Origin: Rhea pennata
Lineage: Eukaryota > Chordata > Aves > Rheiformes > Rheidae
Length of the DNA: 64,000 nt
Assembly: GCF_028389875.1 (NCBI RefSeq)
Contig: NC_084671.1
Span: 1,744,501 to 1,808,500, forward strand
Direction of reading: 5' to 3'
Numbering within the stretch: the stretch's first letter is position 1; each line of letters opens with the position of its first letter. Position numbers and translations under genes: made by a program. Positions 8,533-41,700 of the stretch are shown here, piece by piece. The notes under the pieces were generated by a model that was given only the letters and a program-made list of their open reading frames with translations, made no database searches and was not told where the DNA came from.

Positions 8533-8849
8533 CCCCCCACAGAGCAGTGGGCACCCTCGGTTCCCCCGGGCCCTCGGCCGCGCCGGGCGCGGTACCTGCT
8601 CCGAGTCTCCTCGGGAGGCGGGACAAAAGCAGCCTTCTCCCCACCGCAGACGGGGAAAACCACCGAAAATCGGTATTTCCTCACTCGCTATACGGCCAAC
8701 GAAATAAACCCAGCCAGCACGCAAGTTTCGCCTTGCGAACGCTCAGTTCGCGCTTTAAAAGATGGCATTAAAAAATAAAAAAAAAATAAAAATAAAAATA
8801 AAAGAGGGGAAAAGAGAAAAACTGTTTAACAAAGTCACAGGAGAAGTTT

Positions 8850-9620
8850 AAGGCGAGCCGAAGCGGCGGCGCGAGTCACCAGCCCGCCTCCCCCGGCGCC
8901 CGGCTGCCCCGGCGGCACGAGATGGCGCCGCCTTTGTGCGGCCCCGCGGCTCCGCGCCGCTCCGCGCCCCCCGCCCGGGGCCGGCCCCCGCCGCGGCCGC
9001 CCCGCGGCCCTCGCCGCGGCCGCTCGTGCAGCGCCGAGCGCCTGCGCGCCGGCAGAGAGCGCGGCGGCGCGGCGCGGCGCGGCCCCCCGCGCACTCACCG
9101 CGGAGCTGAGCGGAGCCTGCGCGGGTCTCGCGCCTCAGCCGCCGCCGCAACCTGCGCTCCCGTTCAAACGCTCGGCGCTGCCTCGCCTGCCCCGCCCCGC
9201 CCTCCGCCGCCGGCCGCACGGGAAACCCGGAGCGGCGACCCGCCGGGAGCGGAGCCCCTCGCCGGCCGCGGCGGCGGGAAGGGGCTGCGGATCCAGCGCC
9301 GGGTTTTGCGGCGGCCCTCGCCCCGCTCCGGGCAACCTGCTCCATTGTGCGCCGCTCGCCCGCGGCGCGGCGCGGCTGGCGGCTCCGCGGCGGGGCCGCG
9401 CCTCGGCCCTGGCGCGCCGGCGGGGCCTGCGCCAGGTGCGGGGCGGCCTCCGGGCTTTCACCTGCCTCTGTGCCGCCGGCGGGCGCCGTGGAGACGCGGA
9501 GGCGCCAGGGGCAGCAACGGTCGCGCACCTGCCGCGGGGCGGGGCGGGGCGGGGCGGGCGGCGCCGCCCCTGAGGGAACCCGAGGGAACCGCCCGCGCCC
9601 CTCGGTTACCGAGCAAATCG
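8850..9620 (-). promoter_or_regulatory. CpG island promoter, probably distal PLCH1 promoter
   Basis: This is about 770 bases of extremely GC-rich, CpG-dense DNA inside an AT-rich setting, with GC boxes near 9537-9560 and an NRF1-like GCGCCTGCGC around 9037. On the minus strand there is a strong splice donor (CCGCG followed by GTGAGTGC) at 9099/9098, as expected just after a non-coding first exon. Gene order (PLCH1, C3orf33, SLC33A1, all one strand, then GMPS) makes PLCH1 the likely owner. The many long open frames here reflect base composition, not coding sequence. Confidence 0.6.
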
Positions 9621-9649
9621 TGCAACACCACGGAATTTCACCGTTTCTA

Positions 9650-12390
9650 GAAGTGCTCTGCCTGTTGTTTGTCTTTCAGGGGGTTCCCTCCGGGCTGCCG
9701 GAGATGCTGCGACAAGGGCCGAGGCAAGCGGTTGTGTGGCCGCCTTCTCTCCGAGCGGGCGGAGGTCTTGGCGGTGGTCTGGCGAGAAGGAAAAGATTGG
9801 GTTTTACTGATTTTATTTCCCTTTAGAAAAAAAAATCTATGGTGAACTTTAACAACCATCATCTACGTTAGCTAATGGAACATAAACGCAGTAGCACTGA
9901 TAACTGCTGCTTGTCAGACTTTCCTGAAATACAATATATCAATGACCACTTAAAAGCTTTTGGTTTCCTTCTGACATGGGGGAACGCTACCTTTCTGATG
10001 AAGGTGGCTAATTCTAAAAAACTCTGTTTTCAGAAACATAATTTATTTAATGTTTAATGATGTAGTTGGTGACTGAGAAGTCTTACCTCGGAATCAACAA
10101 ACTGATATGGGGAAAAGAGGAAAAATACAGGGATAAACGAGAGCTCTGGTCGGAGAGAGGTGACCTTTTGCTGCCTCTTCCCTTCCAGCTGGGAGCCCTC
10201 CATAGAGGGACCTTCTGCAGTGGCAGCACCTTGGGCCGGAGACGTTTACCACAGTGCACAGCGAGGGCCCCCACGCCCTGGGCCTCGGCCGAGCTTCGGT
10301 GTTTCGTCTCTCAGGAAAGGACATTAAAGGGGCAGAGATTTCTGGTAGGCTTCTGGAAAAGCTGGTAATGTTTATGGCAACCATTTGCCTTAAACGCCGC
10401 GGTGGCAATAAAAAGCCTGTGCAACCCGTAAGATATTTTTCTTAGTGGGCCATTTGGAGGCATCTCCTTTCACTCTAATCTTTTTAACAAGTTGGCTTGC
10501 TCACAGTGTATTCAGAGTTGCAAGGGCCAGGGCGCAAGAGCTAAATAGTTTTTCTTGTTCTTACTCTAATTTCCAATCACACAAGAATTGCATCCTCTGC
10601 CTGGAAATATCCTTACATGCATTGCTGCTATGGCAGCTGAAGGAATCAGATAGCGCTCCTTAAAGGCAGAATAGGGCACAATTATATAATGAAGAACAGT
10701 GTTTTTTCTTCCTTGACCTCCCAGTCAGTTCCATCACTTGGATCTGTAAAGCTATTTGCTTCTACTTTTGTTACTGGTTTCTGAATAGACAGGCTTCCCA
10801 CAGAGAAAAAATATGCAACCTTTCAAGATTTGCACAGATGCAGATCAGTTTTTTTTTCTAAACTGAGTTTTGTTTTAAACAGATAAGCCCTGAATGATAA
10901 TAAGAAAAGTAGCATTAACAAACAGCTACAGGAGTTGAGCTTTATAAGTGGACTTGTCAACAGGATCCCAAATCCCTCAGCATTCAGTTACACTTTTTAA
11001 GGCTATTGTTGTCCATTACAGCACTGATCACTTAGATTGAGCTAATTTCATGGATTTTAATTATGGAACTATATTAAAGGCACACTATCTAAAGTTTATG
11101 TTATAAAAGTTTACATTATAAACAAACATGAAAATAGATGAAAGGTCTGAATTTAAAGAATTAGATTCCTTCCCATAGGCCCTTTTAAAAGTATTTCTGT
11201 TAAGCTTCCTCAATGCCATGAATACAGGGGCAGGGACCTTCAAAATTTACTTCAAACTAAGGGAAGGCTTTCTCTGCAGAAAAGATGAAACAAATGTATT
11301 GCCACCTTTAAAAAACCCTTCATAAGCCATAGCCTAAAAGAATGAATACTGCAATTTACTGGAAAGAAAAATCTCTAGGGATTTGTTAAACTACATGAAG
11401 GGTTAAAAAGGACTAAGAGGCAAGACTGTGACTGACCAGACTTAGTTCACATTAACCCATACCTCACCTCTGCCTGCTAAAAATGTAGCATGTAATTTCC
11501 TTATTTTCTTCTTTCAGCTTTAAGGTGTATTTTTGTGATAATCTCATATGATACATCTATAAAACAAAAGTGCAAGGTCCAAGTAGAGATATCTTATAAA
11601 ATATTTGATGATTACAGCAAGAAGTTACATAGAAAAGGCTATATCTAACTGGACAATTTTGCTTAGTTTGAAAAAATCTCTTTTCACTTGCCAGATGAAG
11701 AAACACGGACATGTATAAGCAACCATGAAGAAGTGGGATTGTTGCTGGTACTGAACATGTAGTGTGGAGTTAAAAGTGAACTTTGCTACAGGGTTTGGCT
11801 TAAGAGGAGGCTACAACATATTCCTCGATCCTTTACCATCTGTATGACTTTTATGTCCAAATAAGATAGCAATGATTGGCAAAGTCCTTTAATGTACAAT
11901 GCATAAAGCTAGATGTTCAAGACTTTTTCTTTAAACATGAACAAATACCTGGCTGACAACCTCCATCAAAGCCCGCTTCTGTCTGTAGAGCGGCTTCCCC
12001 TCTCCCCATTGCATCTTGCCCAAATGAGATCTATGCAGCAGGTACTTCCAGCTAATTTCCCTGTGCTTTGCGAAAGAGTCACATCCCCAAGAGGGCCAGT
12101 GAACAAAAGTAATAAATGCTGATGTCTGCTCACACCCAAGGAAAAGCTTCAGGATGGCAGGATTCACAATTCTGCCATTGTTACCAGCAGAAAAAATATG
12201 CATAGCAACTAATGTCAGACAAATAGTGTCCAGTTATTAAGTTAGGTTTTTATATTGCAATCTTCTCCCTGATATTTGGCTGCTAAGGTAATATAGAGGA
12301 AAAAAAAGAATTCTGTAAAACAGTTCACTTTAGATAATCATATGGACTGTGAAAGATTAAACAAAGACCAAGTGTTTGGTATACAAAATG
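9650..12390. other. Intergenic region between the CpG island and the C3orf33 3' end
   Basis: The sequence is AT-rich, with no exon, RNA gene or recognisable transposon seen on either strand. A modest GC rise at 10150-10320 has no coding signature. Confidence 0.6.
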
Positions 12391-15385: not shown

Positions 15386-16931
15386 ACTCATCAGCTGTAA
15401 GACCTGTTATGTCAGTATTTCCAGACACTTAGCAATGGTCCCTGCTTTACAGTGTTCGCAACATTAGGGATTACCATGAAAGGAAATTTTGGAAAAAGAA
15501 CAGAAACCGACATTTTATGAGCAATGCATATTCAAGTTCACCTGATTCACCACAGAAAGAATGAGTGCTTTAAAAGCAGACTGACTGTTGACAGGATACG
15601 GATGAAAGAAAGCCAAGAAGTTTTCAAACACACTAGAAAAGAACAGACATACTGAAAACATGCAGGAAAAAACACTACTATTAAGATTAAAGACTTGCTC
15701 AACAGTAGCACTATAGTAATGAAGAAGATGATACTTGATTTAGGGGATGGAGGGAGAAGGATAGGCACTAGATAGCATGAACCTTACATTTTAACACGTT
15801 ATATTTTAGAGCCCCCACTGCAAGAAGCCTTTTGTAGAATACCAATCTGTTTATACGTAAATATAAAAGAACAGATACCGCGCACACAGAAGTCAATGGT
15901 GTATCAGTTCTTTAAAAAGATCTTAAAGTATAATTGTAGGGTTTTTTCTGTACGCTATTTATTCAATAAACTTTTCTATTGTGGTCTGCAAAGTCTACCA
16001 CTAAGAATATCAAAAATTAGGTGGCAATTGGAGGCTTGACAAACAGAAGCAGCTCAAATCCAATCTAATTTGCACTGGAAAATCCAAGAGCCTGGTCAAT
16101 ATATCCACAAGTCCTTGGTTTTGAAGAAACAAAAAACCACCGTTAGCACTGTGTAAATATTTAAGTATCTAAGTTAATGAAGAAAGCATTATTCATAGTT
16201 CGGGCTTTCTGGTAAATTTTAAGTTATCAGCTTTACACATATGATTTCTCATAGCAAAGTGTCCCTGGAGTGGGAAGGAAGGAAGATCAGAGCACCGCCG
16301 CCCTCCCACAGACGGGCAGGGGTGGCGCCCTGCAGGCAAGGGGCTGCTCGCCGTGGCGCTAGCACCGTAACTTCATTACGTGTATCGAATTGATCGCTAT
16401 TTTTAAGAGCGAAGGAAGATTTAGGGCCACGTTTAAAAACGCTTGAACAAACGGACTTGCGGAGAAGGGAGGCAGAGAAGCCGCGGCTATTTTAACCGCA
16501 ATCGGAACACGCGGCCCCCAGGAGAGCGGAGCAAGCACGCGGGGTGCCCGCGCCGCTGCGGCTACGGACGGGAGGCGGGCGCGGCGCGGGGGCCGCCGCG
16601 ATCCAGGCCGCGGGCTGCCTCCTAACGCCTCCGCGGCGCGGGGGCCGCCGCGATCCAGGCCGCGGGCTGCCTCCTAACGCCTCCGCGGCGCGGCGCGGCG
16701 CGCACTCACCAGGCGGACGCTCCTCGCCAGCACGAGCAGCCCGGCCACGGCCAGCCCGGTGCTGAGGCTCTGCGGGCAGAGAGAGGGCAGCGCCGTCAGC
16801 GCCGCGCGCGCCGCCGCCTCCCCCGCCCCGCCCCGCGCCGCCGCCGTTACCCGCACGAGCCCCAGGTGCGCGTCCGCCCACTCGGAGAGCCGCGACAGGG
16901 CCTCGCCCGCCGCGCCCCGCCGCTCCGACAT
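13316..16931 (-). CDS. C3orf33: C3orf33 ortholog, five coding exons, 240 aa
   Basis: Exons in transcript order are 16851-16931, 16710-16769, 15064-15217, 13969-14129 and 13316-13582. Their lengths sum to 723 bases and join in phase to 240 codons plus stop. The product matches the vertebrate C3orf33 family: an N-terminal WADAHLGLVR motif, one hydrophobic segment at about residues 29-45, a PVEFI..NVKLRG block (about 59-71) that belongs to a nuclease-like OB-fold region, a LAGV...WLQEELKPSQ block, and LNEEILRQGLGRT near the C-terminal third. Human C3orf33 (AC3-33) has been linked to ERK/AP-1 signalling, but its biochemical role is poorly known. The start has a purine at -3 and lies inside a CpG island. 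The C-terminus is shorter than the human protein and diverges after the GIWKE motif. Gene identity is secure; function is not. Confidence 0.93.
13969..14129 (-). CDS. C3orf33: C3orf33 coding exon 4 (residues 99-152)
   Basis: This 161-base exon completes the split Trp codon. It encodes LAGVDL...WLQEELKPSQ and WFQLLGRQE, strongly matching the human protein. The acceptor is ATCAG and the donor AAG/GTAAAT. Confidence 0.92.
15064..15217 (-). CDS. C3orf33: C3orf33 coding exon 3 (residues 48-98 plus one base)
   Basis: The acceptor is CAATAG and the donor GTAAGT. The 154-base exon encodes the DIPVEFIEKNVKLRG block and the IEHIPI-like stretch that identify the family. It ends with one base (T) of a split Trp codon. 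Confidence 0.92.
15344..15383. repeat. T-run / 31-A homopolymer in C3orf33 intron 2
   Basis: A short T run, then AAC-type bases, then 31 consecutive A. No retrocopy body is visible. Confidence 0.8.
16581..16684. repeat. Perfect 52-bp tandem duplication in C3orf33 intron 2
   Basis: Two copies of a 52-base GC-rich unit lie head to tail (16581-16632 and 16633-16684), with the start of a third. They sit about 25 bases inside the intron from the exon 2 donor. The copies look identical, so the duplication is recent or homogenised. Confidence 0.9.
16710..16769 (-). CDS. C3orf33: C3orf33 coding exon 2 (residues 28-47)
   Basis: This 60-base exon encodes SLSTGLAVAGLLVLARSVRL, the single hydrophobic (membrane or anchor) segment. 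The acceptor is CCCGCAG and the donor is an optimal GTGAGT. It is separated from exon 1 by only 81 bases. Confidence 0.9.
16851..16931 (-). CDS. C3orf33: C3orf33 coding exon 1 (residues 1-27)
   Basis: It starts with ATG at 16931 and ends in phase 0 before a GTAACG donor. It encodes the short N-terminus ending in WADAHLGLVR, which aligns with the human exon 1 end. Confidence 0.9.
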
Positions 16932-17300
16932 GGCCGCCGCCCCGCGCGCCGCCCCGCCCCTTAGCGCATGCTCAGCCCCGCCCCGCCCTCCGCCCCGCCC
17001 CTCAGCGTATGCTCGGCCCCGCCCCGCCCTCCGCCTCGCCCCTTAGCGCTTGTGCGGCCCCACCCCGCCCCTCAGCGCATGCGCGTCCCCGCCCCGCCCT
17101 CCGCCCCGCCCCTTAGCCCTTGTGGGGCCCCACCCCTCCCCTCAGCGCATGCGCGTCCCCACCCCGCCCTCCGCCCCGCCCCTCAGCCCTTGCGCGGCCC
17201 CGCCCCCCGCCCCGCCCTTCAGCGCATGCGCGCGCGCGCCCGCCCCCTCGCGTGGCGGCGAGATGGCGCCACCGCCCGCGGGGGGCCGCAACACGGCGTT
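16932..17300. promoter_or_regulatory. C3orf33 CpG-island promoter built on a minisatellite
   Basis: Directly upstream of the C3orf33 ATG lie about eight diverged GC-rich repeats starting near 16961, 17002, 17043, 17072, 17113, 17142, 17183 and 17219, with spacing alternating around 41 and 29 bases. Each carries GC boxes (CCGCCCC). Three carry the exact palindrome GCGCATGCGC (17074-17083, 17144-17153, 17222-17231), the core recognised by NRF1. A YY1-like GAGATGGCGCC at 17260-17270 lies on the plus strand. No TATA box is seen. Confidence 0.75.
16961..17230. repeat. GC-rich minisatellite, 41/29-bp alternating units (about 70-bp higher-order period)
   Basis: Repeat anchors TTAGCG/TCAGCG/TTAGCCC recur at 41, 41, 29, 41, 29, 41 and 36 base spacing. 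The copies are diverged, so this is an older array than the duplication at 16581-16684. Confidence 0.85.
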
Positions 17301-17309
17301 AGATTATCT

Positions 17310-20300
17310 CAAGTAATAACTAAAGAGTGCAGAACCTTGTTTTTTTTAAGCAAAAAGAGAACTTGCATCCAAGCAGCACTCAGTTTCGAAGCATCCCGTT
17401 GATTCCGCTAAGCGAAAGCGCTGTCTGCTCTGGCGGACGTCGGGATTCCCACGGCCTCAGGCGCTCGTTCCCTGCTCGGGAAGGTGCTCTGCAGCCTCCC
17501 GGGGCTCCCAGCTATCCGTCCAGTGACAGAACTCTACTCCTTCCTATTTTATCAGAGCAAAGACCATCCGAACACCATCTCCGATCAGTCAGTTTAATAT
17601 AGCGTTTATAATCATGTAAAATTACATTGAAAAAACCCTAGAGGACAATGAGACATAACAGCCTTATGGAAAACCTGTAAGAGTTGACGACAAGCACTGA
17701 TAAATATTCCAATGTCTCTAACAGAGAGAAAACATACAGATAGTATTTTAAAGTAAGAATTTTAGGATGTTGTGATGGGTATCAGACCGACAGCAGCAGT
17801 GTTTGTACGCTGCAGCAGAAGCAGGTTCCCCGAGGGCTGGGCCGTCCTCGGCTGCTCCCTCGCGGTGACGCAGGAGGAGGGAGCAGCAGCGTAACCGCAC
17901 TGGACGTAACCCGCCAGACCTCGCACCCTTCGCCTCACACGCGCCCTTTCGGGGCACTGTCGTCACAGGATTGAGTGCTGGAGAAACAGGACCTGCCTCT
18001 GAAGCAAGTCTTGGGAAACATCAGGAAGTCGCATTCGAGAGGGCAGGAGGTGACGACTCCCGTGCACGAGGCTGCGGCCAAGTAACGGAGCCGTCTCCTG
18101 CCCCACTGCCCCGCAGTCCCACCCTTGCCCTGCGTTTGGTCTCACTCCACACTGATCCTGCTCAGAAAATTAGACCAGGGAAAACCCCTTCCAAAAGAAA
18201 GAAAGAAAGAAAGAAAGAAAAAAAAAAAAGGTCATTTCCACCATTCCCCTCCTTCCAGCACGACCCGCAGCAGGCGCGGTGGGCCGCCTCAGGAAGTTAA
18301 ACTGGCAGAAGATGCGGCCAGGGAGCAGAGGGCAGCAGGACCATGTGTTCGGCGGTGGTTAGCCAGTGCACCACCAGCGCTGGAGCACCACGCTGCACCC
18401 CGACGCTGAACCAGCACCAGGAGAGGAACTTGGCCACGCGAGCACTCAGGCACTACGCACTCCTGAAGTCCCCCATTCTCTGAATGTATCGGGGAGAAGC
18501 CTATGTTCATGCATGGCCACAAAGTCCCTGTAGCAATTAAGCAATCTGTAACACTAACTAGTGCAATCTATTTTCTCCAGTTCCTACTTTATAACAGATT
18601 GTCCAACTAGAGGTTAAGTTCTGACATTAAAAATTATTCAAGTCTACAATAATCCTAACCCTTCAAAAGGGGAAATCATTTCACTTTAAAAAATAAGGTA
18701 AATCTGTGTCAGGGGGAAGACAAAAGATTACTGGCTCATTTCAGCAAGCTGCTGGTAGAGTTGTAGCATTTCTGACTTGTGTTATAAAATAGCAATACCG
18801 ATAGTTTTAAACTAAGTTTCTCCGGCTTGAAAGAGGAATCAAACAATTGTACAATTTATGATTTTGGATTTAATTTTGATATTGCCAAATTAATTTATCA
18901 AGCAATTCCAAATGCAGCTTTTTTTTTAAATTAATAACAGGTCATGTTGGCACATTCAGGAACAGTAAAACAAAATTACAACATAAAAAGCCAACTGTAA
19001 AACATCTATGAATTTAATTTCTCATATTCCACAGTCTAAGTTTTTCCCTTGAAGTTAGCAAAATCAAAAAAATTCCAAGCATGGACAACTATTAAAATAA
19101 GTGGCAGGTGGTTACAATAAATTCAGACTTTAAATGTAAGATACATACTTAATCCAGTGGTGATGATCTGGCCATGACTGAAAATAAATATTTATGTTTG
19201 ACTACAAGTCTGATGTATTATTTCTGTGCTTATCCAGAGGATAGAAATAACTTAATTGGAAGATGACTCAGTTTGGGAAACAAAAATGCTTAATGAAAAC
19301 TGTGCTTTTAGCTAGCTTTTTTAAATTTCTGTTCAAAACAAAACAAAAAATGCCAAAATATTGTTGGTACGCTGCAACCACAGATCACAGCTGGGGAAAA
19401 TCTGCAGCTCAGTTTTGCTTTCGGGGCATGACAGAGGGAAAGAGGAACAGTCTTTGGTACTCAAACAAGTACTCTGTCATACTGCTCTTTTCGGGACACT
19501 TTACTCCTTAAGTCATATAGACTCTTTATACACCCATGTATCTCTTCCAGCTAGTCACAAGTTAGTTGTTTACTTTTTTCTAAAACAAATTCCCCTTACA
19601 GCTTGGAACACAAAGCTCAGGATGCAATACTTTCAATGTCATCAAGAAAAGAAATAAAGTGAACCTTATTTCTACCTTTCCTAGGTACTTTCAATTTTTA
19701 GATAATGATGTGCCATACCATCCAACAGAATATACAAGTGCCCCTTCTCTAGGCCTACAGTATGCTGTACATCACTAAGGCACTCAGGAGGGAAGTCATT
19801 TTTGATAAATGCAACAGGAAAGTTTCTACCATACAGCATCAGGAATGAATTTCTATAGCAGCTCTCCCATAGGATGTAGCTTGTTTGCTTCACGTAGCAG
19901 TAAGCTGTATACCGACTCACTGGGAGTTTGGCAAGTTTGTCATCACCAAATTACTTCCAAAGGCACTGATCATCTCTTCTTACCCCTAGCTGGAATATAC
20001 ATATTTTTTTCCATTCACTTAATTTGGATGTTCAATGTTAATGACATACAGGAACAAACAGTACCACTTCACACCCTCAAAATAACAAATGCTTCCAGGA
20101 CAACTGCATGCCCACTCTTTCTGAAGTCAGTGTTTTCTATGCTAGCTGCTACACTACCCAGTTTGCCTCTTCAGGATTTAAGCCTTAGAGTATTGTGCGT
20201 TACTCTTAATTTAAGTCCTACCCTACACTGGTTTTTCTTCAAAGTTTATCCTGAATGTAAATCAAAATGTTTTGAAGCAGAGGAAATAAATTAAGTGTAA

Positions 20301-27000: not shown

Positions 27001-30000
27001 CAACATAGGCAGGAGCCGCACTGTAATAATAGCACTAAACATGACCATCGCAGTGATAAACCAACAGTGCTACAATTGCAACAGAAATAGCTTTGAACAT
27101 CATCACATGAATATTTCTAATCAGCTCAGCCCTGTCAGCCTGCAACACAGTAATGGCTGGATTAGCTAAGAAAGACCACACACAAAAAGAGTCCAATAAA
27201 AAAAAATCCAAGATTTTTAAAAAGTTTTAGACAATTTATGTACAAATAACACATTCTTCCATTCAAAAACAGAACAAGGGTCCAGTAACAGTCTACTAAC
27301 TTCAAACTTCTTTTGTGATAGTTTACACAAGGAATTTCTAGCACGAACAGTTTCTGGTGCCACCATTACTGCCCATTCCCCTATCCCCGTATCATCTCCG
27401 CTGCTATGGTACTGCCAGCTGCACAGACCAATATGCCTTTGGGTTAGATCAGAAATATGACTGGGCTGGAAAATAACCAGGGAAGAGGTTTATGTGCGGG
27501 TTATTTCAGCACTTCAGCTTTAGTAACACTACAGCCACACATCTCCAAGGAGAGAAGGATGCGCCACAGCCACTAACGCAGGTAAGCTGAGGCTGCCTTG
27601 AAAGGGGCCAGCATCTTCTGCCAGCACTCACACTTTACTCCTCAGCTTCCTTCATACCAGAACTTGTATTCATGCAACAGCATGACAAACTGGATAGGAA
27701 CCAACCAACCCAGCCAACAACTTGAAAATAAAAAATTAGAAAGCCCCTCCTTTGCACAGCAAAATGAGAATGCCTCATACACACTCACACAAACTGTAAG
27801 CCCAATGAAACTTCTCATTTTTTTCCCCACTAGAACTTTACCTTGAAATAATGTAACACAGAATTTGTTTTGAATAATAGTTTTACATTTGTTCATATTA
27901 CCTCTCCAAGTTTAACAGAGAAAAACTAATGTTGCTGCCTCTCGACAACTTTAAGCTGACTTGGGATCATGAGGTTTTAACTTACTCTTCTCTAGCACTG
28001 GCACTCAGCCCATGACGAAAGGGCTCAGAGAGCTACGCTGACAGAAAACTGCTCATCTTTTCACACTGCATTTACTGCTGCTTTAACTGCCTGAACCAGC
28101 TCTCCATGAATTCTGACGATAACCAGCACTAGGACAAGACATTGCCATTTCAGTGAGATGGTTTACAATACTGCTCCACAGCTGATTCAGGGCAAACATG
28201 GGCACAGTGAACTGTGGCACAGGACCAAGTGGAGAGGGTAACAAATTTCCAAAACTGACTTGGCTTCCCAAAAAAATAAAAACATATCCTGCAAGTGTAG
28301 TGCCAGAGTTATTTGCTTTTCTTACTCCACACAGGTTAGTACTCTAGGAGAAGTTAAACATGTTGCATCGGTGGTGTTTTTTTTTTTTTGTTTGTTTGTT
28401 TTTGTTATTTTTTTTAAGGTATGGTAATAACAGATGCGTTTTTACTAATAGTACTGAATAAAACAAATTAAAAAGTTCCACTGTTCGGGTTGCTCCTAAG
28501 TGAAGCAAGACCAAGTTCTTAAATACACCAGTGAGCTGCAAATTGCAGCAGTGAGAGACATCAGCCTGCCACTGCAGCAAGACAGGAGAGACAAGCCAAC
28601 ACTGATGAACTACACGTTAGGGGAAAACTTAAGAAACAAAGCAATAAGCCACTGGGGTTAACTTGAGGACTGCTCCACGCTTCCCAACATACAGAGAAGA
28701 CACAGGATTATTAACAGGAAGAAAAGAGAAGGGCTAGTTGTTAGTAACTGTAGCAGTTGCATAGATGAAATAAACACAACAGTCTTGGAAAGTCAAGTCC
28801 TCACTTATCAAAAAAATAGGCACAGGCAAGAGCAGGCTAGATTTTATATCTCAATTCAACTCAATTTTGGTATGCCCTTTCCCTTTAGCAATACAGGCAG
28901 AGGGATTCAAGTATGGATGGGGAAAAAAGAAACTAAAAAAAAATAATATTTTTTTTCACTATTAACTATGGCCAGTTGAAAACCAGAAATGGTTTTCAGT
29001 CCACTGCCAGTTTTTCAATCCTCCTAAAAGTTTATCTGGCCACATCCAAACTTGCACATTTTAAGGATCTTCGAGGCAATATCTCGAGTATCAGTAATGA
29101 CAAATAACCTTTCTAAAGGAGAAAAACTTCAAAACCGGCCCTGAACTAAAACTTAGTTAGGATCTGATCAGACTACATTTAGTCCATAAATGAAAAAAAA
29201 AAAAAAAAAGACTCCTCTCCTCTATCCCACCCCCACACTCCCCAGCCCCTTAGTTTAAGGGGAAAGGGCCTTCCTTTGGAAACTGGCAGCACAACTAACT
29301 CTGAACTCTTGACACTTCTATTTCTGAGAAGAATACTGGCTTAGAAGATTCAGTTTTGTTGATTTCCCCTTTCTCCCAGAAGAAGATGCTCTTAACAGGC
29401 CTCCTTAAAAGGCAACAAAGCTGTTACGCTTTTTTTAAAACCAATAATCTATCCTGTGGCAATTAAAAGAAAAGCTCAAGCCTCTCCTAAGGGTCAGCCG
29501 AGAGGAGGACAGGGCCAACTGCCCGCTCCCCGGAGGCTGGGGCATGTGGGCTGCCGGGGGCTCCGGGGCCTCCCCGGGGCAGGGGCACCACAGGCTCGAA
29601 GCTGGGAATCCGGCAGCACAGCACCTGCGAGGGTGACGATTCCTCGGGGCTGGGGCTGGAAGCGCAGGTACTTGTTGCAGAAGGAGGCCGACTCGAGGGC
29701 GAGGAAGAGGACATTGCCCAGGAAGTAGCCGGCCGTCTGCCCCACGGAGTTGCAGGTGGAGGCGTAGCCCACGTTCTCCCGCGACAGCATGGTCAGGGCC
29801 CAGCCGTCCACCGCTATGTCCTGCGTGGCCGCCAGGAACTCGAAGAGGAAGAAAGCCACGGTGAGGGCCACCACGTCGGGGCCGCGGCCCTCCCCGTCGC
29901 CCAGCAGCAGGTCCACCCGCGTGGACAGGTAGAGCATGAAGAGCCCCAGGACGTACTGCGTGGGCACCAGCCAGGACTTGCGGCGCCCGAAGCGCCGCAG

Positions 30001-30384
30001 GTAGACGGCGTCCACCAAGGGTGCCCAGAGCAGCTTGAGGCTGAAGGGCCAGAAGACGAAGCTGAAGAAGGCCTGGTCGGTGTAGCTGGCGCTCTTGCTC
30101 TGCAGGATGAGCGGCACGCTGCCCGCCAGCCCCAGCGGGATGCCCTGCAGCACGTACAGCACCAGCAGCAGCAGGATGCTGCCCAGCTCGGCGCGGCAGC
30201 CCCGCGGCCCGCCCGGCCCCGGCGGCGGCAGCAGCAGCGCCTCAGCCTCGGGCTGCCCGCGCGGCGCCCCGTCACCGCAGAGCCGCAGCGCGGGCGGCGC
30301 CTCGCTCCTCACGTCCAGGTACTCGTGGCCGCCGCCGGCCCGCCGCTGCCGCCCGCCCTCCTTGGCCGTGACGGCGGGGGACAT
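20896..30384 (-). CDS. SLC33A1: SLC33A1, acetyl-CoA transporter of the ER membrane, six exons, 545 aa
   Basis: Coding exons in order are 29625-30384, 25625-25815, 24818-25002, 23678-23795, 22806-23021 and 20896-21063, totalling 1638 bases with every phase consistent. The product aligns end to end with human SLC33A1 (AT-1, 549 aa). It moves cytosolic acetyl-CoA into the ER/Golgi lumen, where it feeds lysine acetylation of secretory proteins and sialic acid O-acetylation. It is a major-facilitator-type protein with many hydrophobic helices. The variable N-terminus (1-64) is followed by LGSILLLLVLYVLQGIPLGL, and WPFSLKLLWAPLVDA holds the Ser (115 here) equivalent to human Ser113, mutated in spastic paraplegia SPG42. 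TQDIAVDGWALTML and GYASTCNSVGQTAGYFLG are also intact. The C-terminus ends WKCKRTN. The chosen ATG has a strong context (GCC before it) and is the first in-frame ATG. Confidence 0.97.
22806..23021 (-). CDS. SLC33A1: SLC33A1 exon 5 (residues 419-490)
   Basis: A 216-base exon with YVAIMAFNAKVSDPLIGGTY and NLGGNWPSTVALWLVDPLTV. The segment after VKECVGA is less conserved than its surroundings. Confidence 0.96.
23331..23400. repeat. TA/CA microsatellite in SLC33A1 intron 4
   Basis: Alternating (TA), (AC) and (ATATAC) blocks form simple-sequence DNA. Confidence 0.85.
23678..23795 (-). CDS. SLC33A1: SLC33A1 exon 4 (residues 379-418)
   Basis: A 118-base exon with LLLGLEFAFLVWWTPKVKHE and YYYAVVLLSYALHQ. 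The acceptor is CCTGCAG and the donor GTAATG. Confidence 0.96.
24818..25002 (-). CDS. SLC33A1: SLC33A1 exon 3 (residues 318-378 plus two bases)
   Basis: It encodes VGFSAADAVTGLKLVEEGVP and the PMVPLQIILPLIISKYTAGP helix region, close to identical to mammals. The split Arg codon is completed by exon 4. Confidence 0.96.
25625..25815 (-). CDS. SLC33A1: SLC33A1 exon 2 (residues 254-317)
   Basis: This 191-base exon encodes DFLFFWGAVFLITTTLVALL, a loop with KEETKGITDTYKLL, and the PAVLTFCLLILTAK helix. The acceptor is CTTCAG and the donor GTAAGT. Confidence 0.96.
25816..29624 (-). other. SLC33A1: SLC33A1 intron 1
   Basis: A 3.8-kb AT-rich intron. I see no extra exon, RNA gene or recognisable transposon. 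A T/TTTG-rich run lies at 28377-28420 and an A run at 29193-29210. Confidence 0.7.
29625..30384 (-). CDS. SLC33A1: SLC33A1 exon 1 (residues 1-253 plus one base)
   Basis: This 760-base, very GC-rich exon lies inside a CpG island and carries nearly half the protein. The N-terminal 60 residues (Gly/Pro/Arg-rich) are poorly conserved; from residue 65 on it is highly conserved. The donor is TCGCAG/GTGCTG. Confidence 0.96.
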
Positions 30385-30526
30385 GGCGGGCGGCGGGGCG
30401 CGCTGTGCCCGGGCCCCGCGGACCGGACCGGACCGGACCCGACCGGGCCGGAGCCGCGCACCCTCCGGCCGCCGCAGGGCCGCCGCCGCCACAGCGCGGC
30501 GCCGCCCCTTCCGCCCGCGCGCCGCG

Positions 30527-30545
30527 CGTGGCTCCGCCTCATTGG
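30527..30545 (-). promoter_or_regulatory. ER-stress response element (ERSE), exact CCAAT-N9-CCACG
   Basis: Read on the SLC33A1 strand, CCAAT (30545-30541), nine bases, then CCACG (30531-30527) match the ERSE consensus exactly and in sense orientation, 143-161 bases upstream of the ATG. In the known system NF-Y binds CCAAT and ATF6 or XBP1 binds CCACG. Confidence 0.7.
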
Positions 30546-30557
30546 CCCGCGGGCGGG

Positions 30558-30565
30558 TGACGTCA
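30558..30565. promoter_or_regulatory. CRE palindrome TGACGTCA
   Basis: A full eight-base ATF/CREB site lies 12 bases further upstream than the ERSE. Binding is inferred from the motif. Confidence 0.6.
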
Positions 30566-30719
30566 GGCGGGGTGGCCGTTGGGCGGCCGTTAGGCGGGCG
30601 GCGCGAGAGGCAGCGGCGGCGGCGGGGCTGTCGCCGGTGCCTAAAGGCCTCCAGGAAAAGTAAGTGCAGTGTGTAGCCGCAGCCACGCCTGGAGGGGGGT
30701 GGGGGGGATTTGGAAGCAA

Positions 30720-30941
30720 TCCGGAATGCAGCTTTGTTGTTAATCCACGAATAAGGGCCGCGTCACCTGCGGTACGCCCACCTCATGCCGGGGGATAGCT
30801 GTCACGCACGTCGTTTGCCGCAGAGAGGACAAGCCAGTTGAGACGCCAGAACCACGGGTGTTCTCCCTAAGCCCTACAAGCGCTTGATGTAGCATGCTGA
30901 TAGGGAAGGAGGCCCCAAACGCTCGTAAACTCAGTAAATTC

Positions 30942-30975
<34 letters not shown>

Positions 30976-33560
30976 CATTCCATGAAATAATAATCGTGCT
31001 GAGACTAAGGCACAGCTACCTCTAGAGGTGAAAGGGAAAACTACCCGGTTTGCATGAAAAACGGAACTCCTGCCTTCCTCTGGTGCGGGTCTGAGCCGAA
31101 GGGGGTTAAAAAAGCTGCTGCTGTTGAGCATGTGTTGTATCAGGGCTCTGATAAACATACACAAAATTCCCTGTGGATGCTTTTAGCCGTCCTTCAGCGA
31201 GTGTGCACTCACTGTGTTATAGCCTGGTAAGCAATTATGTTAACATAACTCTGGAGAGATGAATAAGAAAAGCCAAATTTTTAGCTGGCTTGGTGTCCTG
31301 TATTAACAGGAAAAACAGAAAGAGTAAAGCTACAGTAATTAAAAGTTATCCTTTTCTCTATTTTATCCAGTATTTATATAGCTCCATAATAATTAGACTC
31401 TAAGAAACACATGCCATCTTGTGTTTTTCACTCTTCTTTTGGCTGTTTGCAATGCTTGAAGTATTCTTACTGTTCCTCAGTTTTTTATAAATTCTTGAAA
31501 GACATAGCCATAATATGGTTATAATATTCAGGAAAAAAAGTGCAGCAATATTGTCCTTAGGATAGAAATTATAATCTGACAATGCTACTAGATACTAGTT
31601 TGTGATTTCATATTACCTTAAATCTTATACCTTTCTCTACTGTCATCTCTTTAAATGATATGAATAATAATTTTAAAATTTCCAATAGGGGTTTAAAAAA
31701 TATTTGGAATCATTACAATAATAAGATTTAGTTGCCTTCCTCTGTGTCTTTTAAAAAGTTTCACCTGAATAGAAGGCACACTCTACATCATGAAGACTGA
31801 CATGCAGAAAAATGCTTGTTGATTTTTCAAGTGCCAGTTTCTGCCTTTCTTCATTTTTAGCTTTAAAATGGACTCAAATTAAACCTGGAGCTGAAATGTC
31901 ATAAACTGATTAATGGACACAGATACTGTGTTAGCTTGATGTGATGTGCACTAGGATATGTGAAACATTTATTTTAAGCTCCTAGGAACTGGCCATAAAC
32001 TCTTAAGAGCTAGACAAATGTCCTTGGTGTTAAACATGTACAAATCTGCTGACTTGAGATCTGAAGAGGGAAACCAAAATGGAAGTGAAACTGTTGTACC
32101 TTTATTTATTCCAATGTTGTACAATTGCTAGGGCGTACACAAAAACTGAATTCAGATTCTGACTTTAAAAGCATGGCATATGCTAGAGGTGATAAATGCA
32201 TTTGCTAGAACATACCTACATGTCTGATTTTGCAAGGAGGTGCCGTATGATTTTTTTGGAAAATGGTGAGTAATGTTGATGCATATACTGGGTTCACTGA
32301 AATGCACAAAGACACAAAGGTGTTTCCTTCTCAAATATCAATTCCATAAACAGTATTTAGGTAATTCTAAGTGTGTACAAATCAATAGCAATATTTAGAT
32401 AATTTGAAGCATTTATATAATGTATATATAAAAAAATATATTGTGCTAAGCTCTGAAATTAATAGTATTTTTACCATAACACTCATTTACTAATACACTG
32501 CAAATACTATTACCAGTGGGTTACTACTGTTTTAAAATAAGAAACAACATAGCTCAAGCATGTACAGTAAGGACAATTTCACTAATAGAGTTCAGATGCT
32601 ATATTAAAATCCCAGGTATAAAAAACATTTTGGCTCAACACAGCTACTTAGTGCACTAATTTGGGGATACGATTTTGTATGTTATGTGACAATAGTGTCA
32701 ATAAACTTTCTGGAAGCACAAACAGCAGCATTCCTGCCTTGGTTCCCACTAGCCTTGATCTTGTATACTATAGCACGTGGTCAACAAAAATGTTGAAGTA
32801 TATAAAGCACTCATTATTATAATTTTTGCGGATTGATTTTTTTTTCAGTTAGCAGAAGCTTCCTTTTTGAAGTGTCTTCTTGTAGTTACAGGAGAGACAT
32901 TGAATTTAAGTAAGGAATACAGAAGGGAGAATAAAGATGTTATGCTGTAAAAGCTTGGGAGAGCTATATTACTCACAAGAAGTAAAGTCAAGGAGGAATT
33001 ATAAAGGTCAGCCCAACTGAGAATCAGCTTTTATACTTCATGTATTCTGAAATGTATTGCAGATATGTGCTCATCCTGTCTTGCACAGCATAACATCATT
33101 CCGTTGCCACGGCTCCTACGTGCTGCCACAGTACAAGGAAAAAGTAAACATCTAGAAACCTTAATACTAAAACAGCTTAGGTTTGTTTTCTGTATACATA
33201 ATAAGGGCTGAATTCTGCAAGTACTTACATACTGTATTAATTTAAGGGCATTTAAAAGATCAGGGCTTAATGGTGAAATTTTAAAGCCTGTGATCTTGAG
33301 TGCAAATCCTGCCAGAAACAGTCACATCCTTTTTTCTCTTTGCTACCATTAATTATCTCCTTTACATTCTGAGATGCTAATGACAGATGCAAGCTTAAGT
33401 ACACGCATAAGCATTTGTTGAATTGGGGGGTTGATACCTAAGGAAGAGGAAGTTCCTATTAAAAAATGGGGATAGACCATGTTGAAAAATAAGAACTTAC
33501 TTTCACAAGTAAGTTACCAATAAATGTCGAAGTACTTTTTCAGCGTGAACAGGCAAAATC
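30720..33560. other. Intergenic region between SLC33A1 and GMPS
   Basis: About 2.8 kb of mostly AT-rich sequence separates the two divergent promoters. No exon or RNA gene is seen. It holds a 29-base T run (30945-30973) and one copy of a short sequence that recurs at 38591 (see 30815-30867). Confidence 0.6.
30815..30867 (+). repeat. Copy A of an unidentified ~52-bp repeat
   Basis: It shares nearly all positions, including CAGAGAGGACAAGCC and CCAGAACCAC, with 38591-38642 in the same orientation. The flanks do not match. The family is unknown to me. Confidence 0.6.
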
Positions 33561-33599
33561 GATCCTCTGGGATTCTATGCATTTTCCCGAATTCCATGA

Positions 33600-34560
33600 T
33601 AGTACCACACCCTACTTCCCGGATGTCTGCGAGCGGGGTCGCTTCTCTGCCCACAGCAGAGGACCGGGCGCCCGCGGCGCGGCCTTGCCTTGCCGGGGCG
33701 CGGGGCTCGCCGTCCCTCGCCTTCCCCTGCCGTTAGCTGCGCGGGCGGAGGAGGCGACTCTGGCCGGAAGAGACGGTGGTTGCGCGTCCCTGCGCGCCGC
33801 AGAGCGAGGAGTAGCGGGCCGGAGCGCCGCGGCGCAGGACTCGCCTCCCGCCCGCTCCCCGGAGCGCGGCGCGGCGCGGTGCGGCGGCCCCGGCGCTCGG
33901 CGCGCTCCGCCCCTTCCGCCCGCCTCGCCGGCGGCCACGGCGCGCCCGGGCCGTCCGCAGCGGCGGGAGGCGGGCGCGGGGCGGCGCCGCTCCTCCCAGC
34001 AGCGGGGGCGCACACGGGCAGCATTAGCTCATCGCGGCGGCGGCCGCGGCGCCTCGCAGCCTTTTCTTCCCCGCCGCCGCCTCAGAGCTGCCCTCCGCTC
34101 GGCCGCGCCGCTCCCCAGCAGCCTCCATGGCTCTGTGCAACGGAGACGCCAAGGTCAGTGCCGCGGGGCGCCGCGCCGCCGCGGCGGGACGCCGCCGGCC
34201 CGGCCCGGCCCGGCCCGCCGCGCTGCCCGGCGCTTTGTGTTTCTGGGGCGGCCCCGCCACCGGCGCGGCCCCGCTCCCCGCGCACATGGCGCCGGCCTGG
34301 CCTGCGCCTGCCGCGGCGCGGCCGGGCTGGGCCGGGCGCCCCCGCGGCATCCGCGCCGCCTCGCGGGGCCGCTCGCCGGGGCGGCGCCCGGGGGCCGCGG
34401 CGCCGTGGGGCCGCGGGCAGGTGTCGCCGAGCGGGGCCTGTGCGGGCGGCAGCGCTGCCCCCTGCGCTCGGGGAGCGCCGGGCGTCCCTGCTCGGCGCCT
34501 GCCCGGGGAGCGAGGGGTAAGGGGCTCTGCATGGCAGCGCCGCAGTCTTCCGGTAAGAGC
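33600..34560 (+). promoter_or_regulatory. GMPS: GMPS CpG-island promoter and 5' UTR
   Basis: About 950 bases of CpG-dense DNA flank GMPS exon 1. No TATA box is seen and there is no ATG between about 34020 and the GMPS start, so the proximal 5' UTR lacks upstream ORFs. The start site is not mapped. Long open frames across the island are compositional. Confidence 0.7.
34127..34153 (+). CDS. GMPS: GMPS exon 1 coding part (residues 1-9)
   Basis: It encodes MALCNGDAK, followed by donor GTCAGT. The ATG has G at +4 and is the first in the proximal 5' UTR. Phase 0. Confidence 0.95.
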
Positions 34561-35711
34561 TCCCGTGCCTTTCCGAGTGCTCGTCTGTCTCTTCCCCTTC
34601 TCCCGCCGAGCTTTATGCTCTTAAGAGTTACTGAGTACCTCCGGGTTTGCTTGTTGTAGCTTTGTTTTCTTGTTAGTAAAAGCACAATTAAAAATCACAA
34701 TCGCTCTAAGTAAATTTCTTTATTTTCACAATATTGAATTTCGTAGCGTTTAAAAAAATGTTGGCTCATCGTGTCATTGAGTCTACACAGGCAGTGATCT
34801 GTTCAGGGTTTTTTTGCCTGTGTGTCCTGTGTATTTTCAACATAACAGCTGAAATATGGTCCCCTTGGGATGTAGGGGGGTAAGAGCAATACCTTTCCTA
34901 ATAGTTAACCGTGGTGTTTTGGCATTACATTGTAATATGAACTGTAAGTCATTCAGCCAACTTTAAAGCAAAGTTGGTTTACTTAATTGCTACAGAAGGC
35001 AACACGTTTCCACATGAGAGATTGGCTGGAACTGGAATAAGCCTTTCCTGACTAGCTGAATCCACACAAGAGATGCACTATATTTTTTTCCTCATGACCC
35101 TCAGAGATCACATTGCTTGCTCTGCTTCTCTGCTTATCCAGTTTTTAGTAACAGTGGCAAAAGAGATTTACATCAGTGTGCTAAAGTCAGCTTTTTGCGC
35201 TAGAGTGGCAAAAGAACTTGTATATGTTTCTGAAGTAGAAGTTTTGTCTTAACTGAAGAAGTGTAAATTCTGAACAGAAGTTCTGTAAGTTCTCTCAGGC
35301 TGTTTCTATACTTTCGATACAAAGCTGTTGTTCTAGACTTGTTATCCAGCTTAAAATATAACATGATTTTGACTCTTTTTTAGGTGCTTAGTTGGTCAGA
35401 ATTAAGGTTTTCTAACATACCTTTTCCTGGCATAGAGAAATTCTTTTGTGAATGTGATTTTCTTGAGGGTTTCTACTTCTCTAGGATTGTAAAAGCTAAT
35501 TGACTCTGAGTGTTATGACATGGAGTTGGTCTGCCTTTTCCTGTGAGAAAATAGTTTGTGTGTAATGAGTGGTTAATATACAGGGCCAGATCCTACTAAT
35601 CCAGCAGCATCAGATAACTGCTACAGTCTCATTAGCCATTGGAAATCTGCATGCGATGTATATATATTAAAGTTGATTTGAGATAAGAGATGAGTTGGTT
35701 TGATTTTTCTT

Positions 35712-38700: not shown

Positions 38701-41700
38701 TTTCAAAGACAGTTGTCTTTGAGACCTATTGTGTCACAGTAACTGAGGCAGAAAAATTCAAAGACAGCCTTTGCTGTGTGTTCGTTGGGAAAAATCTGCC
38801 CCAGCATGGCAGTGGTGATGCTTTCTGTCCAGAATGACCTGTGCTTGATTTTTATGTAACTATCTGACTCTATCAATATGCTGAGGTTTGCTGCAGGCAG
38901 TGTCAACTTTCTTTGGTAACCTGAGCAGCGGCAGTGGCAGCCTCTTCCCTTTGTGCCATGTGCTGAGGACAGTGTTGCCTGCTACAAATATGACTTCTCT
39001 GTTGCATCAGATTGTAAAGCAAGTCTAATATGCCACATTTAAAACGTTAAATGGTTATAAGCATAAAAATGTTTTTTGAGGTAGTGTTGCCAAAGTAAAA
39101 CCCTTTCCAGTTTTTCTTTCTTCAAATCTAAATTGGCAAAGAAACAGTGCAAGTTGTAGGTCAAGAAAAATAGCCTCCACAGTAATTTCATTAGCAGTAC
39201 TTTTATTTCCTTTTCTTTTTCTTTTATTTATTTATTTATTTTTTCCCTGGCACTCATTCTCTGGTGTTTTACAGTGTGGCTGAGTTCACATTCTTCCATG
39301 AAGATTCCTCAGTAAGGGCACTATCTCGGAGTAGCCACCTGTTCTCACAGTTTCTTTTTAAGAAACCAGAAACTTGTTCATGTCTTCTTCTAGCCCTATT
39401 TGTTTAGAAGAAGTTGGCCAACCAATTCAAAAATGATGGGGATCAAAGAGCACAATCACTTGGACTTTGGTTGAAGGGAATCTGGTTGAAGTAACCTCAA
39501 ACAAAATTGATGTGCAATTTGTTAGAGTACTGTATTCAAAAGACCTTTTAAAATTATTTTAGCAGCTGCATTTGTTCTGAGTTTTTCCTTTTTGCCCTCT
39601 CCAGATGATAATTTCCAGTGAAAGCTCAGAGTATGCGGCAATGTGATAGGGGAAAAAACACGTATTTCTACTGACTTTGGATTGTCCTTTGCTTGAGATA
39701 AAGGCACGTGTTTTTCTTTATCATATTGTATGTTAGGCTTTATATGAAACTACAAAACGTAAAAAGCAGGTATGGTTGTATTGGTGAACAGAGCATATTG
39801 CTTCTTGTTAGTGGGAAGCTCTGCCTTTACTGACTGTTCTTTTGGTTGGCCTAATTTTGACCAGGTTTGTAGTTTTGGAGGGAGTCATGTTTGTGTGGCT
39901 GCTTGGGAGGGATGTGCTGCATTAATGCATAGGCGCCAGTGCTTATGCTGAGCTTTATAAGCTTGAAGATTTCTCTGTTTTAAAGTTTCTCTGTGACTTT
40001 TTCATTTTAATTATAAATAAATGTGTGTGTACTCTTAACAAGCTTTGCAATTATTAGTAATTTAAAGGGACTTGCCTTAAACTCCTCATTCTGCAGTGTG
40101 TTACCATAAGATGCTTATGTAAGTAATGTTCACAGCTGGAGAACGCTGGAGGAGAGCTCAAGGATGGCCAGCATCACTACGAGGGAGCTGTAGTAATACT
40201 CGACGCTGGAGCACAGTATGGAAAAGTCATAGATCGTCGAGTGCGTGAGCTCTTTGTTCAGTCCGAGATCTTCCCTTTGGAAACACCAGCCTTTGCAATC
40301 AGAGAGCAGGGGTTCCGGTAGGTAATTGTGTGTGTATCTGTGTGTTTTGAAGTTTTTCCCTTATTTCAGCGTAACAGTATCTGTGAATACCAGTAACTGT
40401 GCTAATATTTGTATCTTTAGCGTGTTCACAGAAATAAGACTTGAGTGTTGCTGGGGAAACTATTGGCAACAAAATTTATTTTGGATATTTTCTTCTTGCT
40501 TTGATGTCACTTTAATCGTTTTCTTTTGCAAATTTAATTTTAAGAGGTTGCTTTTGAAATACATATCTACAAAAATTCAGATGATCACCCTGCTTTAGCT
40601 GTTACACCATAAGATAGTTCACTTGAAAAACAAATTTTGTGAGTTAAAAGGGGTGCTTTTTTAAATTTATCTACAGGTAAATTAATTAATTAAGTAAACT
40701 TATTAATTTGCTTGCTAGAGACATTGTGATCTATTGTTCTGACTTGTTTCTGGGAAGCAAACTTAAAAACAAAAAGGAGAGAAGAAAAAGCAAAAACTGC
40801 TGTGCATTGTTTGCAGCAAGAAAAGATCTTCCAGTTATTTAATGCTTTGTATTTTTATTCCCTTGTTTTATTAGGCTTACCAAGGTATGCCTCTGTACGT
40901 GAGGAAAATAAATGCCCTGAAGTCTGCAAAGCATCATGACTTAGTTGTCAGTTCAGTAAAACTAGTAATACACTGCATGTGTGCTCATTGCTTCTGTGTC
41001 AGACAACAGCTGGTACAATGCTTTTTGTGGAATTGTGTTTTTGTAATCACTGATTACTAGTAAACCAGGAAATGGCATATTTGAATGAGTCAAACAGCAA
41101 CTTACTGAACTCTTCTGAAAGTGTAGATAACATAGAAAACCCAGGAACTCCTGAATCTTAGGTGGCTGATGTATGAATAATTTCTCTTTCAGAACACTTC
41201 TGAAAAATAGCTTGCTTGTGTTAGGACTTGTTTATAGTTCTCCCACAATCAAGTATTTAAAAGATGGGTGTATTCCTGCGTAAGAATTGCTGCATCTACT
41301 GTTTGTTATTTTTTCATATGTAGTGTAGTGCTAATGACAGAGTCTCAGACATGCACTGTATCAATATTGGTTTGTAGTGGGAAGATTTTATCTCTTTCTA
41401 TTTACAGTTGAAGATTTCTTCAGAAGTTCTCAATAAAAACTGTTGGACTTGTCATTCAAATAATTGCTCTCTCAAATGTGGCAAAACAGTTCCATTCAAA
41501 AGGTCATTTTTCAAGGCTAAGATAATGAGTGCAGCTTATCCAGATCAGTCAATAAGCTTTGTAACCACAGTCTCAATCAGTCAGTTGCATCCAGGAAAGA
41601 TCAACAAATATGGAAACCAGACATCTGGTGCCTTCATTTAATGACTTTTGTAAAAATGAGTTAATGGTTCTACTGCAACATCTTGTGTGCACCACATATC

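Follow-up and report, generated by a model that had tools for sequence, protein, structure and literature searches.

The closest described systems are the mammalian ERSE-I promoters, for instance those of Hspa5, Hsp90b1, Calr, Ddit3 and Xbp1, which carry an exact CCAAT-N9-CCACG near the gene start according to the accessible part of PMC8301375, where Hsp90b1 is also listed among the ERSE genes. In the grammar set out there, NF-Y occupies CCAAT and ATF6 or XBP1 occupies CCACG. ATF6 needs NF-Y on CCAAT in order to bind CCACG; XBP1s binds such elements independently. The human XBP1 ERSE is placed at +33 to +51 in the same source, indicating that an ERSE can also act just inside the transcript. 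Excerpts of further papers place ERSE sites upstream of calnexin and TRA1 (PMC545785), report XBP1 ChIP sites in human plasmablasts that include a CCAAT subset forming an ERSE (PMC7471511) and describe a hamster BiP reporter that carries one ERSE-I (PMC13090131). Like these promoters and the BiP reporter, the SLC33A1 promoter of Rhea pennata contains an exact CCAAT-N9-CCACG, which the first-pass annotation had read as an ERSE of NF-Y with ATF6/XBP1, in agreement with the accessible sections of PMC8301375. It differs from the mammalian ERSE-I promoters in that the element is known here from sequence alone and the stress response is predicted. The same gene and pathway are reportedly linked in mammals by Pehar et al. 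2012, whose title is said to place SLC33A1 (AT-1) downstream of IRE1/XBP1. We regard the SLC33A1 ERSE as a new predicted case of a known class, and as an ordinary member of it.

Layout of the SLC33A1 promoter

In the window, i.e. the whole 64-kb stretch of DNA that was analysed, the minus strand reads, in order, TGACGTCA (30565-30558), a 12-base spacer, CCAATGAGGCGGAGCCACG (30545-30527), 142 bases and the SLC33A1 ATG (30384). The second of these motifs is an exact ERSE-I on the minus strand (30527-30545) with GAGGCGGAG as its N9, and it is the sole exact match in the window. Its CCAAT box (GGCCAATGA, 30541-30545, minus strand) is a predicted NF-Y site with no other CCAAT within 29651-30800, and its CCACG (30527-30531, minus strand) is a predicted ATF6/XBP1 half-site under the grammar in the accessible part of PMC8301375. 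The two halves have the same orientation and are nine bases apart. TGACGTCA (30558-30565), 12 bases upstream of CCAAT and close to the gene start, is a full palindromic CRE and likewise the only copy in the window. An ERSE next to a full CRE at 12-base spacing on the SLC33A1 strand had been claimed before, and the motif scan confirmed it. The claimed position upstream of the ATG also stands, but the distance, then given as 143 bases, comes to 142 when counted between the final CCACG base and the start-codon A. Neither the UPRE nor ERSE-II, searched as TGACGTG(G/A) or ATTGG-N-CCACG, has a match in the 64-kb window.

The ERSE lies inside a CpG island (30051-30800) that spans the promoter and the start of the coding region. 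A GC box, GGGCGG, is found on the plus strand between the CRE and the CCAAT box (30551-30556), and two more are located on the minus strand downstream of the ERSE (30511-30516 and 30502-30507). The coding part of exon 1 (29705-30384, minus strand) was scanned as 226 residues, which align with the acetyl-coenzyme A transporter 1 in PDB, residue 1 on residue 1 (E 1e-99). Exon 1 on its own also matches Pfam PF13000 (Acatn, 181.7 bits), so that the identity of the gene as SLC33A1 is borne out. From what is known of the family, we take its product to be an ER membrane transporter. With the same exon as query, a scan of bacterial and archaeal genomes returned five bacterial loci, and the viral contigs scanned contained no relative.

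No TATAWA occurs on the minus strand within 30385-30600, and the initiator patterns that were tried have no match between the ERSE and the ATG; thus, the SLC33A1 promoter is apparently without a TATA box. Transcription most likely starts within the GC-rich 142 bases between ERSE and ATG (30385-30526, minus strand), which would comprise the start region and the 5′ UTR. A potential uORF of 77 codons (30309-30542, minus strand) begins with an ATG that overlaps the CCAAT box and runs out of frame across the SLC33A1 start. This arrangement weakly favours a transcription start downstream of the ERSE, and the uORF may be relevant only if transcription starts upstream of it. The probable 5′ UTR also holds a short CGGAC tandem repeat of 6.8 copies at 30419-30452 (30419-30456). 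Just past the CRE, on the side facing away from SLC33A1, GGGCGGCCGTT is repeated 2.5 times at 30570-30597. Elsewhere in the window, near 60293, there is a reverse-transcriptase ORF, presumably of the CR1-like family, as would suit a bird or reptile.

In the likeliest reading, which builds on the grammar in the accessible part of PMC8301375, ATF6/XBP1s on an NF-Y platform would drive SLC33A1 under stress. NF-Y would occupy the CCAAT box, cleaved ATF6 and/or XBP1s would join it upon ER stress on CCACG nine bases away, and SLC33A1 transcription would rise. The CRE 12 bases upstream would bind CREB/ATF-family factors and contribute basal or cAMP-linked output; alternatively, it may help to recruit further bZIP factors. 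Taken as a whole, the apparently TATA-less CpG-island promoter of SLC33A1 probably contains a functional stress-inducible ERSE-I (NF-Y/ATF6/XBP1) together with a CRE.

Local chance and genome-wide background

Chance occurrence in the promoter was assessed by dinucleotide shuffles, 4,000 per region. With 500 bp of promoter, 4 of the shuffled sequences contained an ERSE, 5 a CRE and none both. The corresponding figures were 17, 16 and 0 for 1.3 kb, and 0, 1 and 0 for 317 bp. Shuffling of the whole window gave a mean of 0.03 ERSEs, with at least one copy in 3 of 100 shuffles, and a mean of 0.18 CREs, with at least one copy in 17 of 100. Given the single CCAAT of 29651-30800, the probability of CCACG at a fixed offset from it is 0.0021-0.0028. 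When the spacing was relaxed to CCAAT-Nk-CCACG with k from 0 to 60, the window yielded three matches, one each at k = 7, 9 and 19. Its other three CpG-rich regions (8801-9750, 16401-18100 and 33551-34650) contain no ERSE and only one CCAAT, which is located at 17709 between island segments. An ERSE together with a CRE at SLC33A1 is unlikely to reflect local chance. Against this count the choice of the motif after the sequence was read, out of many possible motifs, the CREs that arise in shuffles of the whole window and the two further matches at relaxed spacing.

On the scale of the 1.269-Gb assembly, exact ERSEs number 397 and the N8 version 336, i.e. N9 is just somewhat commoner than N8. Since the ERSE string alone is no rarity in the genome, the weight lies on its context. 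The class to which the SLC33A1 site belongs, CCAATGR-N7-CCACG, has 73 copies. Part of the N9 count comes from repeats: the 88 loci that we examined reduce to 74 distinct matches. Contig C142 harbors 12 near-identical repeat copies with an exact ERSE, and near 208.65 Mb of C1 there are 8 exact ERSE copies spaced 5.1-5.7 kb, both of which inflate the genome-wide counts. A CRE followed by an ERSE within 30 bases (CRE upstream) is found once in the assembly, at SLC33A1. This rarity is no proof of function; both elements contain CpG, and CpG is scarce in vertebrate DNA. Counts of the reversed patterns exceeded those of the motifs, with 435 and 424 versus 194 and 203 for the ERSE and 4 and 2 versus 0 and 1 for CRE-N0-30-ERSE. 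The reversed pattern is without a CpG where CCACG has one, and this control was hence set aside.

CpG-rich ERSE loci in the same genome

Of the 397 exact ERSEs, we took the first 100 in the list and examined 88 of these, all on C1 and C2; a locus was called CpG-rich if GC exceeded 0.55 and CpG o/e exceeded 0.6 in about 520 bp. Five of the 88 fell into this class. From a second list, CCAATCR-N7-CCACG, 30 of 43 copies were examined; seven were CpG-rich, four of them already among the first five, and one further locus (L070) was just below the threshold with an o/e of 0.59. Besides SLC33A1 there are thus eight distinct CpG-rich loci, four of which could be named: HSP90B1, a CRELD2-like gene, a DNAJC3-like gene and TBCC; HSPA5 was not among them. 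The ORF listing gave no gene name for L019/L045, L022, L052 and L068, of which two belong to the first five and two were added by the second list, and Pfam returned no match for six of seven ORFs at CpG-rich loci, an HSP90B1 exon among the six.

HSP90B1, whose first exons match endoplasmin in PDB, and the CRELD2-like gene belong to the first five loci and resemble SLC33A1 in having an exact ERSE in CpG-rich DNA, 298 and 233 bases, respectively, from the likely start codons. They differ from it in that TGACGTCA is absent within 30 bases upstream of their ERSEs, and at the CRELD2-like gene the orientation of the ERSE is opposite to that at SLC33A1. This gene has several exons, one of which contains Pfam DUF3456; a PDB search with one exon gave weak unrelated matches only, and judging from its peptides the gene is presumably CRELD2. 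Its ERSE (L013 and L038, C1 near 20.345 Mb) points away from the gene, as in a shared bidirectional promoter. Another of the five precedes what we presume to be a DNAJC3-like start, for which neither Pfam nor PDB gave a match. TBCC, which came from the second list and was named by Pfam, has a CpG-rich exact ERSE shortly upstream (L051, C3 near 27.53 Mb). It is a tubulin-folding gene for which we know of no ER role, and its ERSE is either a false positive or marks an unexpected UPR target. Among the eight loci, UPR genes were recognised once by database match and twice by presumed identity, in one of these two cases with Pfam support. With three UPR-type loci and the non-ER gene TBCC in this set, a CpG-rich ERSE is a fair but not certain sign of UPR control. 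The regulatory reading of the SLC33A1 element gains support because some CpG-rich ERSEs in this genome mark known UPR genes; TBCC does not add to it.

Weighing these observations, a working ERSE at SLC33A1 is supported by the exact N9 spacing at the only CCAAT of 29651-30800, by its rarity in local shuffles and by the unique CRE-N0-30-ERSE. It is weakened by N9 strings being no more than somewhat commoner than N8 strings (397 versus 336), by repeats, by TBCC and by the naming of just four of eight loci. A rival reading is an ordinary constitutive housekeeping promoter, in which NF-Y, CREB/ATF and Sp factors would drive steady SLC33A1 expression and CCACG at N9 would be coincidental. CCAAT, CRE and GC boxes would be enough for such a promoter, exact ERSEs abound in bulk DNA (397, against 336 for the N8 version), a non-ER gene has one in front of it as well, and the motif was selected after the sequence had been read. 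Yet coincidence has to place CCACG at exactly N9 from one given CCAAT, at the low probability stated above, in front of a gene whose product is presumably an ER membrane transporter, and UPR genes stand out in the small set of CpG-rich ERSE loci with a gene name. We consider a purely constitutive promoter possible, if rather unlikely.

The element might also serve a bidirectional promoter, in which a divergent plus-strand transcript from near 30,600 shares the CRE/CCAAT core, so that any stress response may concern this transcript or both. A GTAAGT on the plus strand (30660-30665), a splice-donor-like site about 95 bases from the CRE and within the same island, suggests a divergent transcript. 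The CRE is palindromic, and the ERSE beside the CRELD2-like gene of the same genome points away from that gene. Moreover, GMPS is arranged head-to-head with SLC33A1 on the plus strand, with the start codons 3.7 kb apart; the MALCNG at 34127 looks like its start, and of its exons at 40202 and 51320 the one at 40202 matches GMP synthase in PDB (E 4e-27). However, each of the two genes has its own CpG island, and with an island and a start codon of its own at 34127, GMPS makes a second gene at the SLC33A1 promoter unnecessary. We consider a bidirectional arrangement improbable, and a stress-inducible ERSE-I serving SLC33A1 is the reading that we prefer.

SLC33A1 and the unfolded-protein response

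The first-pass annotation had proposed that the unfolded-protein response drives ER acetyl-CoA import through this promoter. Motif, spacing and position in the CpG island hold, but the proposed end point has been weakened. In the accessible part of a preprint (PMC12934820), inhibition or loss of SLC33A1 activated IRE1/XBP1s and raised ER GSSG while ER acetyl-CoA import was unchanged, and export of oxidised glutathione by SLC33A1 was supported; such export is also stated in the title of a second preprint (PMC12889552). Both concern the cargo and leave the promoter reading unaffected. In the accessible part of PMC13090131, SLC33A1 was reported in 2026 as required for ATF6 activation: its loss in hamster cells impaired ATF6 processing and derepressed IRE1, and the authors call the substrate uncertain. 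In human plasmablasts, SLC33A1 was bound by BLIMP1, and the same passage is silent on XBP1 binding to SLC33A1 (PMC7471511, in excerpt). Differences between human and mouse in the transcriptional regulation of AT-1 were raised by the authors of PMC8881600 in the section at hand. The accessible parts of PMC6156544, PMC4032616, PMC6645673, PMC6718414, PMC12435581, PMC8392065, PMC7820588 and PMC4229964 contain nothing on the SLC33A1 promoter. More generally, in partly accessible literature, with subscription journals mostly outside coverage, we found no report of an ERSE in the SLC33A1 promoter or of its induction by ER stress.

As SLC33A1 is reported to be necessary for ATF6 activation in the accessible text of PMC13090131, the ERSE could close a regulatory loop. 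ATF6, together with XBP1s, would raise SLC33A1 via the ERSE, and SLC33A1 in turn would be needed for ATF6 processing and would restrain IRE1. In this role SLC33A1 would tune the gain of the UPR, moving it away from the IRE1 arm and towards the ATF6 arm, and would determine ER redox or the supply of acetyl-CoA; the CRE would let cAMP preset the gain. We put this loop forward as a speculation that is more doubtful than the promoter reading from which it departs. By itself, the SLC33A1 element adds another ER gene to those with an ERSE; its value lies in the inexpensive way it offers to test a loop between the UPR, SLC33A1 and ATF6. If functional, it would be a direct cis-element that connects an ER transporter of debated cargo, acetyl-CoA or oxidised glutathione, with the unfolded-protein response.
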